DNA from: Armatimonadota bacterium | GTDB taxonomy: Bacteria > Armatimonadota > Zipacnadia > Zipacnadales > JABUFB01 | NCBI GenBank assembly: GCA_013314775.1 | Contig: JABUFB010000014.1 | Span: 124,001 to 188,000 of the forward strand | DNA length: 64,000 nt | Direction of reading: 5' to 3' | Shown: positions 8,626 to 15,629 of the stretch, in pieces | Numbering within the stretch: the stretch's first letter is position 1 | How the letters are laid out: every line of letters begins with the position of its first letter | Made by a program: the position numbers and the translations under genes | Notes under the pieces: generated by a model | The model's database searches: none | What the model saw: the letters and a program-made list of their open reading frames with translations, nothing else | Told to the model about the DNA's origin: nothing

Positions 8626-8655
8626 TTGCGTGTCGCCGTTCTTTTGTGCTAAAAT
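8626..8655 (+). promoter_or_regulatory. Sigma70-type promoter
   Basis: TTGCGT (8626-8631) and TAAAAT (8650-8655) are 18 bp apart. Transcription would begin near 8662, about 140 bases before the next coding start and only about 80 bases before an intrinsic terminator. Confidence 0.6.
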
Positions 8656-8661
8656 GGGTTT

Positions 8662-8741
8662 GGCGTAGGGTGAGCCCGCTTTGACCCGGGCCCAGACGCT
8701 TCGGATGCATTGGGCAGGCCGTTAGTCTGTCGGCCTTTTTT
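8662..8741 (+). ncRNA. Candidate small RNA or attenuated leader
   Basis: The roughly 80-base interval between the predicted start point and a T-run terminator can fold into a gcccg/cgggc hairpin, a gccca/tgggc stem, and the terminator hairpin (aggccg at 8716-8721, cggcct at 8731-8736, then Ts). It has no plausible open reading frame. It is either a free small RNA or a conditional terminator in the leader of the downstream lipoprotein genes. I recognise no named RNA family. Confidence 0.4.
8716..8741 (+). terminator. Intrinsic terminator upstream of lipoprotein gene
   Basis: A 6-bp GC stem (aggccg/cggcct) with a 9-base loop is followed directly by six Ts. It lies 59 bases before the next start codon, so it could attenuate that gene or end an RNA starting near 8662. 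Confidence 0.65.
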
Positions 8742-8799
8742 CATGTCCGGCTGTTTCCGGAGTCCCGTGGCCCCGGTCCAGTCCCGGGAGGATCCCAGC

Positions 8800-10575
8800 A
8801 TGCGCAATCGGGCGCGAGCATTGCTACCAGCGATCGTACTCTGCATCGCAGCACTGGTCTTCATCGCCTTGTCTGGCACGGGTTGCGGCAAGAAGGGTGA
8901 GGATGCCGCAGGCGGGGCCCCGGCTGGAGGGCCCGAACAGATGATGGCGGGCGCTCCGGGTGGAGCACCGATGGGCATGCCCGAAGGTGGTGGGACGCCC
9001 GGTGGTCCCGCTGGTCCTCCTGGAGGTCCGGGCGCGCCTGGTGGCGCACCACCGGCAGCCGGCCCGGGTGGCCCTGGCGGCCCCCCTGAGGGTGCTGGCG
9101 GTCCCGGCGGCCCCGGTGGCCCCGGTGGTCCGGGAGGACCCCCTTCCAAAGATGGCGGCGGCGGGGGAGCTGACGGAGGTCCCCCAGCTCAGCCGGCAAA
9201 GGTGGAGAAGGCTGCTCCCGCAACTGCCGAGCAGGTCGAGGCGGTTGAGGAAGCTCTCGGCATACTGCGAACCTTCCTGACTCGCGAAGCTCCGGCCCCC
9301 ACTGCCACTGACAAGAAGAGCGAGGATGAGGCTGACTCCAAGGCCCCGACGGCAAAGGCCTCCTCGGGCGGCATGAAGTTCGCCCAGGCCGGTGGACCGG
9401 GTGGACCGGGTGGACCGGGTGGACCGGGTGGACCGGGTGGACCGGGTGCCGGCGGTCCTGGTGGACCGGGGGGAGAAGGTCCGGCAGCGGGAGCGGCTTC
9501 CGCTGCAGACGGCGTTCCCCCGCTGGCCCTTGCAATCGCTGTCAAGCGCGTCTGTCAGAAGACCCGCGGCATACAGATGAACCAGCAGAAGTGGTTCCAC
9601 GAATACTGGTTCTTCATGGCCCGCTCACTGCTCGAAGAGGTCCAGACCAAGTACGGCGATTTTCCGCTGGCGCAACTTGCCCACGCCGCCCAGACGAAGA
9701 GCGACTGGGAAGGCTACCTGTGGCATTGGGCGATGCGTACGATGCTGGCGCAGACTGATTACTCCGACCTGCTGGACTGCGCTGATGCCATCGCCAAAGC
9801 GCGCGTGGGGCTGGCCGCAATCCACGCGATTTGCCGCTATGGTCTTCTGATGGAGGACGTGGACGCAACCAAGGTCGGCCGCATCATCTCCCCAACCATC
9901 TCCCACACCATCAACACAATCCGCGTCAGCTTCGGGAACGCGAACTACGACCCGGCAACGATCGTCCGCGATGAAACCAAGCGCAGTCGCCTGATGGTCG
10001 AAGTGTTCGACAACTACCTGAAGTGGGGACACAACTGGCACTGGGAGCGGTCGCGCAACTGGGCTTACCTGTCCCGTGTCTCTGCGAACGTTCCTGCTTA
10101 CACTTGTGATTCCTGCGGTCGGAAGCTCACACGAGACGGGCAGATGTGGCGCTGTCCGCGCTGTGGCAAGGCAACCCGCCCTGCCATCCCCGGAACTTTC
10201 GAGGTTGTCGAACCCCACGGATGTCTGGATTGTGGCTATCGCGACCAGTACCGGGTATCCGCTGTCCAGTGTCCATCCTGCTACGCGAGTCCCGATGGGC
10301 GTTACCGTCTCACCCGCTCTTGGAATTCGCCGACGTTCGCAAGGCGCCAGCAGGGGATGAAGAACGCGCAGAAGGCCCACAAGACGGCCGAGGCCGTATT
10401 TGCGAGCAGTTCAGTGCTTCCGACCAAGGCCGACCGGCAGGCGTATGAAGCCTGGGTTGCGGTATCTCCGGCTCCCGAACGCGTGCCGTCGCTGCACCAG
10501 ATGGAGCTTGAGGCGCACGAGGTTCGCCTGCGAGCCGCAGCTATACCGAGTGATCGTCAGCCGCAACGCAACTAA
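8800..10575 (+). CDS. Putative lipoprotein with Gly-Gly-Pro tracts and zinc-ribbon knuckles
   Basis: 591 residues; start ATG at 8800 with gggagg upstream. The N-terminus is a lipoprotein-like signal ending at a Cys in SGTGC. About residues 30-130 and 195-225 are made almost entirely of Gly, Pro and Ala, largely GGP triplets. About residues 240-430 form a Trp- and His-rich alpha-helical region without a family I know. Residues about 435-510 hold four CxxC knuckles (CDSC, CPRC, CLDC, CPSC), the spacing of two zinc ribbons. Zinc ribbons are normally cytoplasmic, so their presence behind an export signal is odd. It is followed by a related gene 54 bases downstream. Function unknown. Confidence 0.75.
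   Translation: MRNRARALLPAIVLCIAALVFIALSGTGCGKKGEDAAGGAPAGGPEQMMAGAPGGAPMGMPEGGGTPGGPAGPPGGPGAPGGAPPAAGPGGPGGPPEGAGGPGGPGGPGGPGGPPSKDGGGGGADGGPPAQPAKVEKAAPATAEQVEAVEEALGILRTFLTREAPAPTATDKKSEDEADSKAPTAKASSGGMKFAQAGGPGGPGGPGGPGGPGGPGAGGPGGPGGEGPAAGAASAADGVPPLALAIAVKRVCQKTRGIQMNQQKWFHEYWFFMARSLLEEVQTKYGDFPLAQLAHAAQTKSDWEGYLWHWAMRTMLAQTDYSDLLDCADAIAKARVGLAAIHAICRYGLLMEDVDATKVGRIISPTISHTINTIRVSFGNANYDPATIVRDETKRSRLMVEVFDNYLKWGHNWHWERSRNWAYLSRVSANVPAYTCDSCGRKLTRDGQMWRCPRCGKATRPAIPGTFEVVEPHGCLDCGYRDQYRVSAVQCPSCYASPDGRYRLTRSWNSPTFARRQQGMKNAQKAHKTAEAVFASSSVLPTKADRQAYEAWVAVSPAPERVPSLHQMELEAHEVRLRAAAIPSDRQPQRN
9391..9444 (+). repeat. Six tandem copies of a 9-bp unit
   Basis: The unit ggtggaccg is repeated six times without a mismatch and codes for Gly-Gly-Pro. 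Because the unit is a multiple of three, gain or loss of copies would keep the frame. Confidence 0.95.
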
Positions 10576-10629
10576 ACGGGCAAGGTCGGGCATGGTCACC
10601 TGCCCGGCCCCCAGTCCGGAGGGCGCTGG

Positions 10630-11844
10630 ATGAGACACCGCCTGATCATTGCAGCCATCTTGCTGACTATTCCGGTGCTGCTCGTTGGGTGCAAAGAGGA
10701 GCCCGAGGCGGAGGCTTCCGCGCCACCACCTCCGGACCCGGGTTGGCCCAGCTACTCGCCGATGGCTGCCGCCATCGAGTTCGAGTTGCAGGAGGCCCAT
10801 TATCATATCCGCAAGGGCCGGTACATGGCGCCGGACAGCTATGGCAGCGAGGCAGAAATGCCCGCTGCGATGGGCTACACCCAGTGGGCTTTCGCCAATG
10901 CCACGCGCCTGTACGAATCTCCCCAGTCTGCCGCTGACGACAAGCAGAAACTTGAGATCGAGACCAAGCGCAACAGTCTTTTCGCAGGTGCGACTGACGC
11001 CGCAGATCATCTCATCCTCGAACATGGCGGCCGCTTCTCAGTGCCCCACGGTTATGTACCGCGGTGCAAATGGTGTGGGCTTCCCATGCCCAAGAGCCTC
11101 ATGCGCTGGCCGATGGAGGATGGGGAGAAGCGAGTCGAGTGTCCGCGCTGCGGCGCCCGCGACTCATTCCCCACTGGCCTGATCTACCGTTGCCCGAACT
11201 GCCACGACGTGGTTGCCGGAACACAACTCGGGCCGCGCTGCCCGACGTGCAGCCGCAAGTGGGCAGGGGCTGAGAAGCATTGCTCTCGTTGTGGTTACGC
11301 GACGAGCGTCCTCAGCCGACAGGGCCAACGCTGCCCCAACTGCAAGGCCAAGTGGAACTTCGACATACCCTTCGGCAACTGGCCATCTCGTGCGCCGATC
11401 CCGGTGGACTTCACCGGCTCAGGCGAAGGCGACCGGTGCACCGCCTACACTGCAGTTACGGGGAGACGCTGTCCGAACAAACTGCCCTCGCACTCGAAAG
11501 ACAAGGCCGATCTGGCCTGCTGGTACCATCGTGGCCAGAAACAGCGTGACGAGGTTGCCGCCTCGGGTGGCGGCGCACCGGCGGGCGCTGGTGGCGCCGG
11601 CGCGGCCGGTGGGATGGGCGGCGGCATGGGTGGTCCCGGCGGACCGCCTGGAATGGGCGGACCTGGTGGGCCTCCCGGCATGGGTGGTCCCGGCGGACCG
11701 CCTGGAATGGGCGGGCCCGGTGGACCTCCCGGAATGGGCGGACCGGGCGGGCCTCCGGCCGGCATGGCGCCTGGTGGTGCGGGCGGGCCTCCCGGCGGCG
11801 CTGCGGCCGGGCCTCCTCCGGGTGACATGGGTGGCGCAGAGTAG
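10630..11844 (+). CDS. Lipoprotein with three zinc-ribbon pairs and Gly-Pro-Met tail
   Basis: 404 residues; ATG at 10630 with ggaggg at 10618-10623. A standard lipobox (LLVGC) ends the signal at Cys21. Residues about 145-240 contain six CxxC knuckles (CKWC, CPRC, CPNC, CPTC, CSRC, CPNC), enough for three zinc ribbons. Residues about 270-300 hold a different Cys/His motif, C-x-A-x-T then GRRC and a final CWYH, resembling the short zinc motif of DUF5763-type proteins. The last roughly 90 residues are repeats of GGPGGPPGM. It shares architecture, in another order, with the gene just upstream and is probably cotranscribed with it. Role unknown. Confidence 0.8.
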   Translation: MRHRLIIAAILLTIPVLLVGCKEEPEAEASAPPPPDPGWPSYSPMAAAIEFELQEAHYHIRKGRYMAPDSYGSEAEMPAAMGYTQWAFANATRLYESPQSAADDKQKLEIETKRNSLFAGATDAADHLILEHGGRFSVPHGYVPRCKWCGLPMPKSLMRWPMEDGEKRVECPRCGARDSFPTGLIYRCPNCHDVVAGTQLGPRCPTCSRKWAGAEKHCSRCGYATSVLSRQGQRCPNCKAKWNFDIPFGNWPSRAPIPVDFTGSGEGDRCTAYTAVTGRRCPNKLPSHSKDKADLACWYHRGQKQRDEVAASGGGAPAGAGGAGAAGGMGGGMGGPGGPPGMGGPGGPPGMGGPGGPPGMGGPGGPPGMGGPGGPPAGMAPGGAGGPPGGAAAGPPPGDMGGAE

Positions 11845-14492: not shown

Positions 14493-14552
14493 CGTGGGTC
14501 GCGCGCCCGGTTTCTGCACATTGCCGGTCCACCCCACCAAATGGGTCCCGCC

Positions 14553-15629
14553 ATGCGTCTGATCGATAGATATGTCCTGCGACTGATGGTCATGCCGACG
14601 CTCATCGGCGTCGCAGTCTTCATGGTCATCATGCTGTCCGAGACGGCAATCAAACTCGGCGATACGGTTATCGGCCTTAGGGTTCCCCCCGCTCTCATCG
14701 GTCAGTACTTCCTCTTCAGGCTCCCGCGTGTGTTCGCCTGGTCTCTTCCCGTCGGCATTCTCGTTGGCGCCGCCATGGTGACGACGCAGATGGCGAGAGC
14801 CGGAGAGGCGACTGCCATGCGGGCCGGCGGAGCGAGCTTGCGGCGCATCTGGATCTCGATCATCGTTCTCGGGATGGCGGCAACCGTGGTTTCGTTCGCA
14901 GTCGAAGAGTTCCTGGTACCCGGCGCAAATGCCCGTGGCACCAAGGTCTTCAACACCATGACCCGCACCCAGCCCGTCATGGAATCACGAAGCGACCAGG
15001 TTTTCCGCGACGAAAAGGGACGCATCATCTACGTCGGGCACATGGATGTGGTCAGCAACGAGCTTCAGAATGTCCTGGTTGTTGACCAGAGAGACGACGG
15101 CAGCCCCGGCGTCATCACTGCGGCCCGACGCGCCGAACGTCAGGGCAAAGAATGGATGCTGCGTGAGGGTATCCGGCTGCGGGTGGGGACTCATGGGGGG
15201 GAGCTTGGGCCGTGGGAGCCGTTCGAAGCAGAGGCAATCAGCCTGTGGAGCGCCCTGGACGAGTACTACAGCGACCAGCGAACGGATTACGAGATGAGCG
15301 CCCGTGAGATTCGCGAGCGCGTGGACCTGCTGCGTTCATCGGGCCAGGACCCGCAAAGGTGGGAAGTGCGGCTCCAGTTCCGCTACTCCATGCCCGTCGC
15401 GTGTCTGGTCTTCGCCATGGTCGCGGCACCCCTGGGCATGCGGTTCGCTCATCTGGGCAGCTTCGTGGGGATCGTTATTTCGATCCTGGTGGTCTTCCTG
15501 TATAACGGCGTGCGATCGTGGGGTCTCGCATTCGGCCTCGTGGGCGACCTGAACCCGATCGCGGCCGCCTGGGCGCAGAACATCATCTTTGGGTCATTGG
15601 GCCTTTGGCTGGTGCTGAGGGCGCGGTAG
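14553..15629 (+). CDS. LptF/LptG family permease
   Basis: 358 residues, the normal length for YjgP/YjgQ permeases. The start is probably the ATG at 14553 (an ATG at 14541 adds 4 residues). Three membrane segments lie in the first 120 residues (MPTLIGVAVFMVIML; FAWSLPVGILVGAAM; ISIIVLGMAATVVSF), then a periplasmic beta-jellyroll-like domain of about 150 residues, then three membrane segments. LptF and LptG work with LptB and LptC to lift lipopolysaccharide to the outer membrane, so the gene supports a diderm envelope. Only one copy is here; I cannot tell LptF from LptG. It converges with the PfkB gene. Confidence 0.88.
   Translation: MRLIDRYVLRLMVMPTLIGVAVFMVIMLSETAIKLGDTVIGLRVPPALIGQYFLFRLPRVFAWSLPVGILVGAAMVTTQMARAGEATAMRAGGASLRRIWISIIVLGMAATVVSFAVEEFLVPGANARGTKVFNTMTRTQPVMESRSDQVFRDEKGRIIYVGHMDVVSNELQNVLVVDQRDDGSPGVITAARRAERQGKEWMLREGIRLRVGTHGGELGPWEPFEAEAISLWSALDEYYSDQRTDYEMSAREIRERVDLLRSSGQDPQRWEVRLQFRYSMPVACLVFAMVAAPLGMRFAHLGSFVGIVISILVVFLYNGVRSWGLAFGLVGDLNPIAAAWAQNIIFGSLGLWLVLRAR

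Follow-up and report, generated by a model that had tools for sequence, protein, structure and literature searches.

A lineage-restricted pair of predicted lipoproteins with zinc-ribbon modules and Gly-Pro tracts in an Armatimonadota bacterium

In a 64,000-nucleotide stretch of DNA from an Armatimonadota bacterium (the window), two adjacent genes encode proteins, P1 and P2, that form a small lineage-restricted family, found, within the genomes searched, in five members of a single order. The pair falls in no named family of the libraries searched, yet it is assembled from familiar parts. Our best explanation, held tentatively, is that P1 and P2 are a co-expressed, lipid-anchored pair that acts jointly at the envelope as a scaffold or adaptor, not as an enzyme. 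The helical parts would be their conserved working core, the zinc ribbons optional metal-held clips outside the cytoplasm, serving protein interaction or stability, and the Gly-Pro tracts flexible spacers of a kind used by several envelope proteins of this genome. This proposal draws on features read from the sequence: lipoprotein signals, a pair conserved in the same order, ribbons that are optional, cysteines lost in concert and a genome in which neither DsbA nor VKOR was found.

The gene pair, its expression signals and its distribution

P1 (8800..10575; 591 aa) and P2 (10630..11844; 404 aa) are open frames arranged head to tail, P1 before P2, on the + strand of the window, to which all feature coordinates below refer, with a gap of 54 nt. 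Upstream of P1 lies a promoter with TTGCGT, an 18-nt spacer and TAAAAT, preceded immediately by TGTGC (8626..8655). In an alignment of the four genomes of the family, TTGCGT, the spacer and TGTGCTAxxAT are kept in all four while the flanking sequence has diverged; this promoter was not among the matches of a plain consensus promoter scan of the locus. The Shine-Dalgarno sequence GGGAGGA (8786..8792) and the ATG at 8800 are both conserved in the four genomes and support this start of P1; a longer, TTG-initiated frame from 8710 is unnecessary. A terminator-like hairpin 3' of P2 (11907..11929), detected by consensus scan, is identical in the genome of the same genus. We counted the conserved promoter and the hairpin, flanking genes 54 nt apart, in favor of a co-expressed pair, and P1 and P2 are probably co-transcribed.

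The 155-nt leader between the -10 region and the P1 ATG (8645-8799) is 97% identical in the two species of the genus, with only four aligned positions differing; synonymous divergence between the same genomes is 0.41 and 0.49 in the two genes. Rfam returned nothing but chance microRNA matches for the locus, and the leader folds no better than shuffled sequences (z -1.3), so its near-identity has neither an RNA family nor a stable fold as an explanation. The gene upstream of P1 (7725-8597), conserved in two of the other family genomes (G001 and G002), matches nothing in Pfam or NCBIfam at E 0.001 and resembles a carbohydrate-binding DOMON-type protein.

Related genomes carry the pair too, contrary to the absence that the original prediction had named as a refutation: both genes occur in 5 of 101, namely this genome (G000), one of the same genus (G001), two of the same family (G002 and G003) and one of another family in the same order (G036). 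Gene order is kept across the four family genomes, which represent three genera, and in G001, G002 and G003 the pair adjoins the same TIM-barrel gene. In G036, P1 and P2 are adjacent and in the same order though their other neighbors differ, so the unit of conservation is the pair itself. A P2 profile search of 291 genomes of the phylum gave no further full-length relative. Among the related loci are those of two MAGs of Candidatus Zipacnadia and of an Armatimonadetes MAG whose P1 is 93% identical, and we place the genome among Candidatus Zipacnadia (Armatimonadota). Comparison with G001 indicates that both proteins are under purifying selection (dN/dS 0.12 for P1 and 0.07 for P2). Since the pair is present in five genomes only, we regard its co-conservation as thin evidence for a shared complex.

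A helical core with optional ribbon modules

From its lipoprotein signal, P1 continues through a first Gly-Pro tract (8911..9189; 9-nt tandem repeats beneath the translation), a short charged/helical piece, a second Gly-Pro tract, (GGP)n (9388..9477; a 9-nt tandem repeat of 9.7 copies), a helical core (9499..10089), a zinc-ribbon module with four CxxC (10096..10284) and a helical C-terminus (10297..10572). In P2, the signal is followed by a helical part that starts with an invariant DPGWP (10741..11049), a zinc-ribbon module with six CxxC (11065..11343), a C-x-A-x-T...C...CxxH finger (11437..11529) and a GGPGGPPGM tail (11563..11841; a 27/54-nt tandem repeat). The original prediction, made from this sequence, had described two genes with four and six CxxC, the finger motif and GGP tracts, and all of these are where it placed them; the module order does differ between the genes, the tracts preceding the helical core in P1 and lying C-terminally in P2. 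Its view that the combination matches no known family also agrees with our HMM searches, in which neither protein reached the cut-off of any Pfam or NCBIfam family. No enzyme domain was found in either protein by the same searches; an enzyme fold in the P1 core that they missed is possible. A paralogous relationship between P1 and P2 finds no support, as profile comparison aligns their ribbons only (54 columns) and none of the helical parts.

The G036 orthologues separate core from accessory modules. The P1 alignment with G036 spans the helical core (38-39% identity), has a gap at the ribbon module and continues in the C-terminal helices, which are conserved throughout the family and into G036. 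An assembly break as the cause of the missing ribbon was rejected, as the gene lies on one continuous contig with its reading frame intact. The G036 P2 is complete at 148 aa, comprising a lipobox, DPGWP, the start of the helical part and then a Gly-Pro tail, with zero CxxC; the first half of the helical part is thus conserved through to G036, and against G001 the helical part has a dN/dS of 0.016. That so diverged a pair carries no ribbon at all leads us to conclude, on sequence grounds, that the ribbons are optional modules and that the lipoprotein and helical parts are the conserved core. Directly 3' of the ribbon-free pair lies a third short lipoprotein, mostly signal and Gly-Pro-Met tract (G036 L024:2006-2464).

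Structure prediction, proposed originally for both proteins, was run on their cores with four sequences in the alignment and gave a mean pLDDT of ~45. Helices are predicted in the P1 core, confidently only for approximately core residues 40-110, and the P2 helical part is modeled as three helices with low confidence. Structure comparison matched the latter model to designed helical repeats and to TPR and MIT bundles, at Z 8-11 across ~75-90 residues; scores of this size are frequent for helical bundles, and we take these matches as generic only. Pfam gave no TPR match in P1 or P2, and a sequence search of solved structures with P2 returned nothing credible. At this confidence, the models confirm neither helical folds nor ribbons in three dimensions, and they neither support nor exclude a scaffold or any of its rivals.

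Ribbon cysteines and the state they may adopt

The P1 knuckles are C436/439, C452/455, C475/478 and C491/494; those of P2 are C146/149, C171/174, C188/191, C204/207, C218/221 and C235/238, followed by the finger residues C270-x-A-x-T, C281 and C297-x-x-H300. Shuffles of the same composition average 0.26 (P1) and 0.59 (P2) CxxC, with 1 of 20000 and 0 of 20000, respectively, reaching the observed count. Both modules give zinc-ribbon matches below threshold, including DZR (PF12773) at 16.1 bits for P1 and 20.1 bits for P2 against a gathering threshold of 27.3; the P2 module of G003, searched alone, scores 22.4 bits, also below it. P2 retains all 12 CxxC cysteines across the four family genomes. 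In the G003 P1, all four cysteines are replaced in the second half of the module, with the first half untouched; in G002, all three cysteines of the P2 finger have become serine, and the finger is kept in G000, G001 and G003. Some cysteines outside the knuckles vary in the family alignments, and paired knuckles are kept or lost as a unit. DsbA and VKOR were searched for in the bacterium's own genome, and neither was found; control genomes gave matches. This result and the all-or-none loss of cysteines together favor metal-liganding cysteines, and the ribbons of P1 and P2 are likely metal sites.

The original prediction spoke of a metal-binding surface system, of which the metal sites fared better than the implied role. 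It is conceivable, and in our judgment unlikely, that the pair handles zinc or some other thiophilic metal at the cell envelope, capturing, storing or sensing it through its ten CxxC knuckles and C3H finger. The many knuckles per protein and the conservation of ribbon cysteines within the family speak for such handling. Against it, G002 and G003 each lack one site, zinc-ribbon sites are normally structural, and the genes around the pair in the window encode ThuA, a TIM barrel and an L,D-transpeptidase, with no metal transporter or regulator seen beside it. It is mainly because the G036 pair is ribbon-free, which speaks against metal binding as the core function, that we rank a scaffold above metal handling.

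In aerobic bacteria, exported cysteine pairs usually form disulfides, and the cysteines of P1 and P2 might likewise pair in an oxidizing periplasm instead of binding metal. We consider this quite unlikely, given that DsbA and VKOR were not found and that ribbons typically show such CxxC spacing and CPxCG contexts. Not finding these two proteins makes reduced, metal-bound cysteines plausible outside the cytoplasm of this bacterium. According to PMC10290634, Zipacnadia are Armatimonadota with an anaerobic, acetogenic or fermentative metabolism, and by kinship with them the bacterium is probably anaerobic itself. If true, the pair would be a clean case of metal-held ribbons replacing disulfides in the envelope of an anaerobe, based on ten CxxC knuckles in a conserved lipoprotein pair and a genome without detected DsbA or VKOR. 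As a system it is narrow, confined to five genomes of one order.

We judge it very unlikely that the knuckles bind iron and carry electrons at the envelope in the manner of rubredoxin. Such a role would suit the anaerobic, fermentative way of life that PMC10290634 reports for Zipacnadia and the weak matches to rubrerythrin-like and rubredoxin-like models; every one of these falls below its curated cut-off (NF033497, 17.2 bits against 32; PF21349, 12.1 bits against 26.5), no redox partner gene was seen alongside the pair, and the modules are optional. Attachment of heme c, as in a c-type cytochrome, was rejected since the only CxxCH (P2 188-192) is CPYCS in G003 and hence not conserved.

Envelope anchoring, Gly-Pro tracts and related systems

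The lipoprotein-type signals that had been proposed for both proteins were recovered by PS00013 in P1 (8800..8886, lipid-anchor Cys29), in P2 (10630..10692, lipobox LVGC, Cys21) and in all their orthologues, with a lipobox cysteine in every one; Cys21 of P2 is invariant in the alignment of five orthologues. Neither protein has a further hydrophobic stretch strong enough for a membrane helix. P1 and P2 are therefore best read as predicted exported, lipid-anchored proteins. The residue after the lipobox cysteine is Gly or Lys, not Asp, which under the +2 rule of E. coli directs a lipoprotein to the outer membrane, a rule that may not hold here. An LptF/LptG-like permease in the window (14541-15629), assigned by eye from sequence, is consistent with an outer membrane. 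That the N-terminal segments are instead uncleaved anchors holding cytoplasmic bodies, as the usual cytoplasmic location of zinc ribbons and the SGTGC lipobox of P1 in this genome, non-canonical at -3, might suggest, is highly improbable in view of the lipobox cysteine in all orthologues, a positive n-region ahead of a single hydrophobic stretch, which together predict a body outside, and Gly-Pro tails resembling those of envelope pilus proteins.

These pilus proteins are encoded in the type IV pilus operon on contig C9 of the same genome (L006:3648-7066), where proteins at the PilN, PilO and PilP positions, with long Gly-Pro-Met tracts, lie consecutively between PilM, which matches TIGR01175 above cut-off, and a PilQ-like secretin. 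The tails of P2 and the PilO-position protein share 87% amino-acid identity over 75 residues. At third codon positions of identical residues they agree in 40%, with ~29% expected from codon usage, and against G001 the P2 tail has a dN/dS of 0.06. A tail alike in protein and near-random at synonymous sites is, by these sequence comparisons, held at the protein level and is not a fresh DNA expansion. Several other genomes in the order likewise encode PilO-position proteins with Gly/Pro/Met-rich tails, and a few further exported proteins of this genome have Gly-Pro tracts. Another lipoprotein of this genome has a long Gly-Pro linker with a weak TPR match at its end (C14:81065-81129, L055). The combination singled out by the original prediction is thus present and less specific than it appeared: judged from these sequences, the tracts are not special to the pair and are a common tail of envelope proteins here. 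We think it hardly probable that extracytoplasmic ribbons are a general interaction module in Zipacnadia, allowed by an absent disulfide system, with the conserved Gly-Pro tail as a shared docking tag that joins the pair to the alignment complex of the type IV pilus.

For the scaffold or adaptor, metal binding, a physical partnership of P1 with P2 and the scaffold role itself are what we infer. Zinc ribbons are regarded as cytoplasmic structures, the premise on which the pair first seemed anomalous. Two exported proteins suggest that it is not strictly valid in this phylum. One, in G004 (C202, L077:1357-2016; the same gene at L085:1330-1989), joins a zinc ribbon (SRxGxxCPxC...W) to Cu_amine_oxidN1; the other, in G132 (C36, L078:1495-2694), has a sub-threshold STN-like part and C-terminal zinc ribbons above cut-off. 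Both signal peptides were assigned by eye. The G004 protein was the one convincing exported relative outside the family in a ribbon search of 291 genomes of the phylum; its ribbon stands in the query alignment, having first been found independently at E 3.3e-4. At the remaining loci inspected, the matches were weak and fell on zinc proteins that are unrelated or cytoplasmic. Among the papers listed by literature searches for exported zinc-ribbon lipoproteins, none described such a protein.

Like P1 and P2, the G004 and G132 proteins place a ribbon after a signal peptide, and the G004 ribbon shares SRxGxxCPxC...W with the third ribbon of P2. They differ in their partner domains, Cu_amine_oxidN1 and STN-like, with no sign of the P1 or P2 helical parts, and we counted exported ribbons with such other partners in favor of a scaffold. 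The PilO-position protein has a Gly-Pro tail near-identical to that of P2, and the PilN, PilO and PilP-position proteins have no domain in common with P1 or P2 seen outside the tail. DZR (PF12773) and related ribbons, among the best sub-threshold matches, have the same CxxC knuckles in CPxC(G) context at ribbon spacing; P1 and P2 score below their gathering cut-offs and, as predicted exported lipoproteins, carry the ribbons behind the signal. TcaA-type membrane proteins likewise hold a ribbon within a membrane-attached envelope protein. There, however, the ribbon is cytoplasmic and lies N-terminal to the membrane helix, whereas in both P1 and P2 the ribbons lie C-terminal to the lipoprotein signal.
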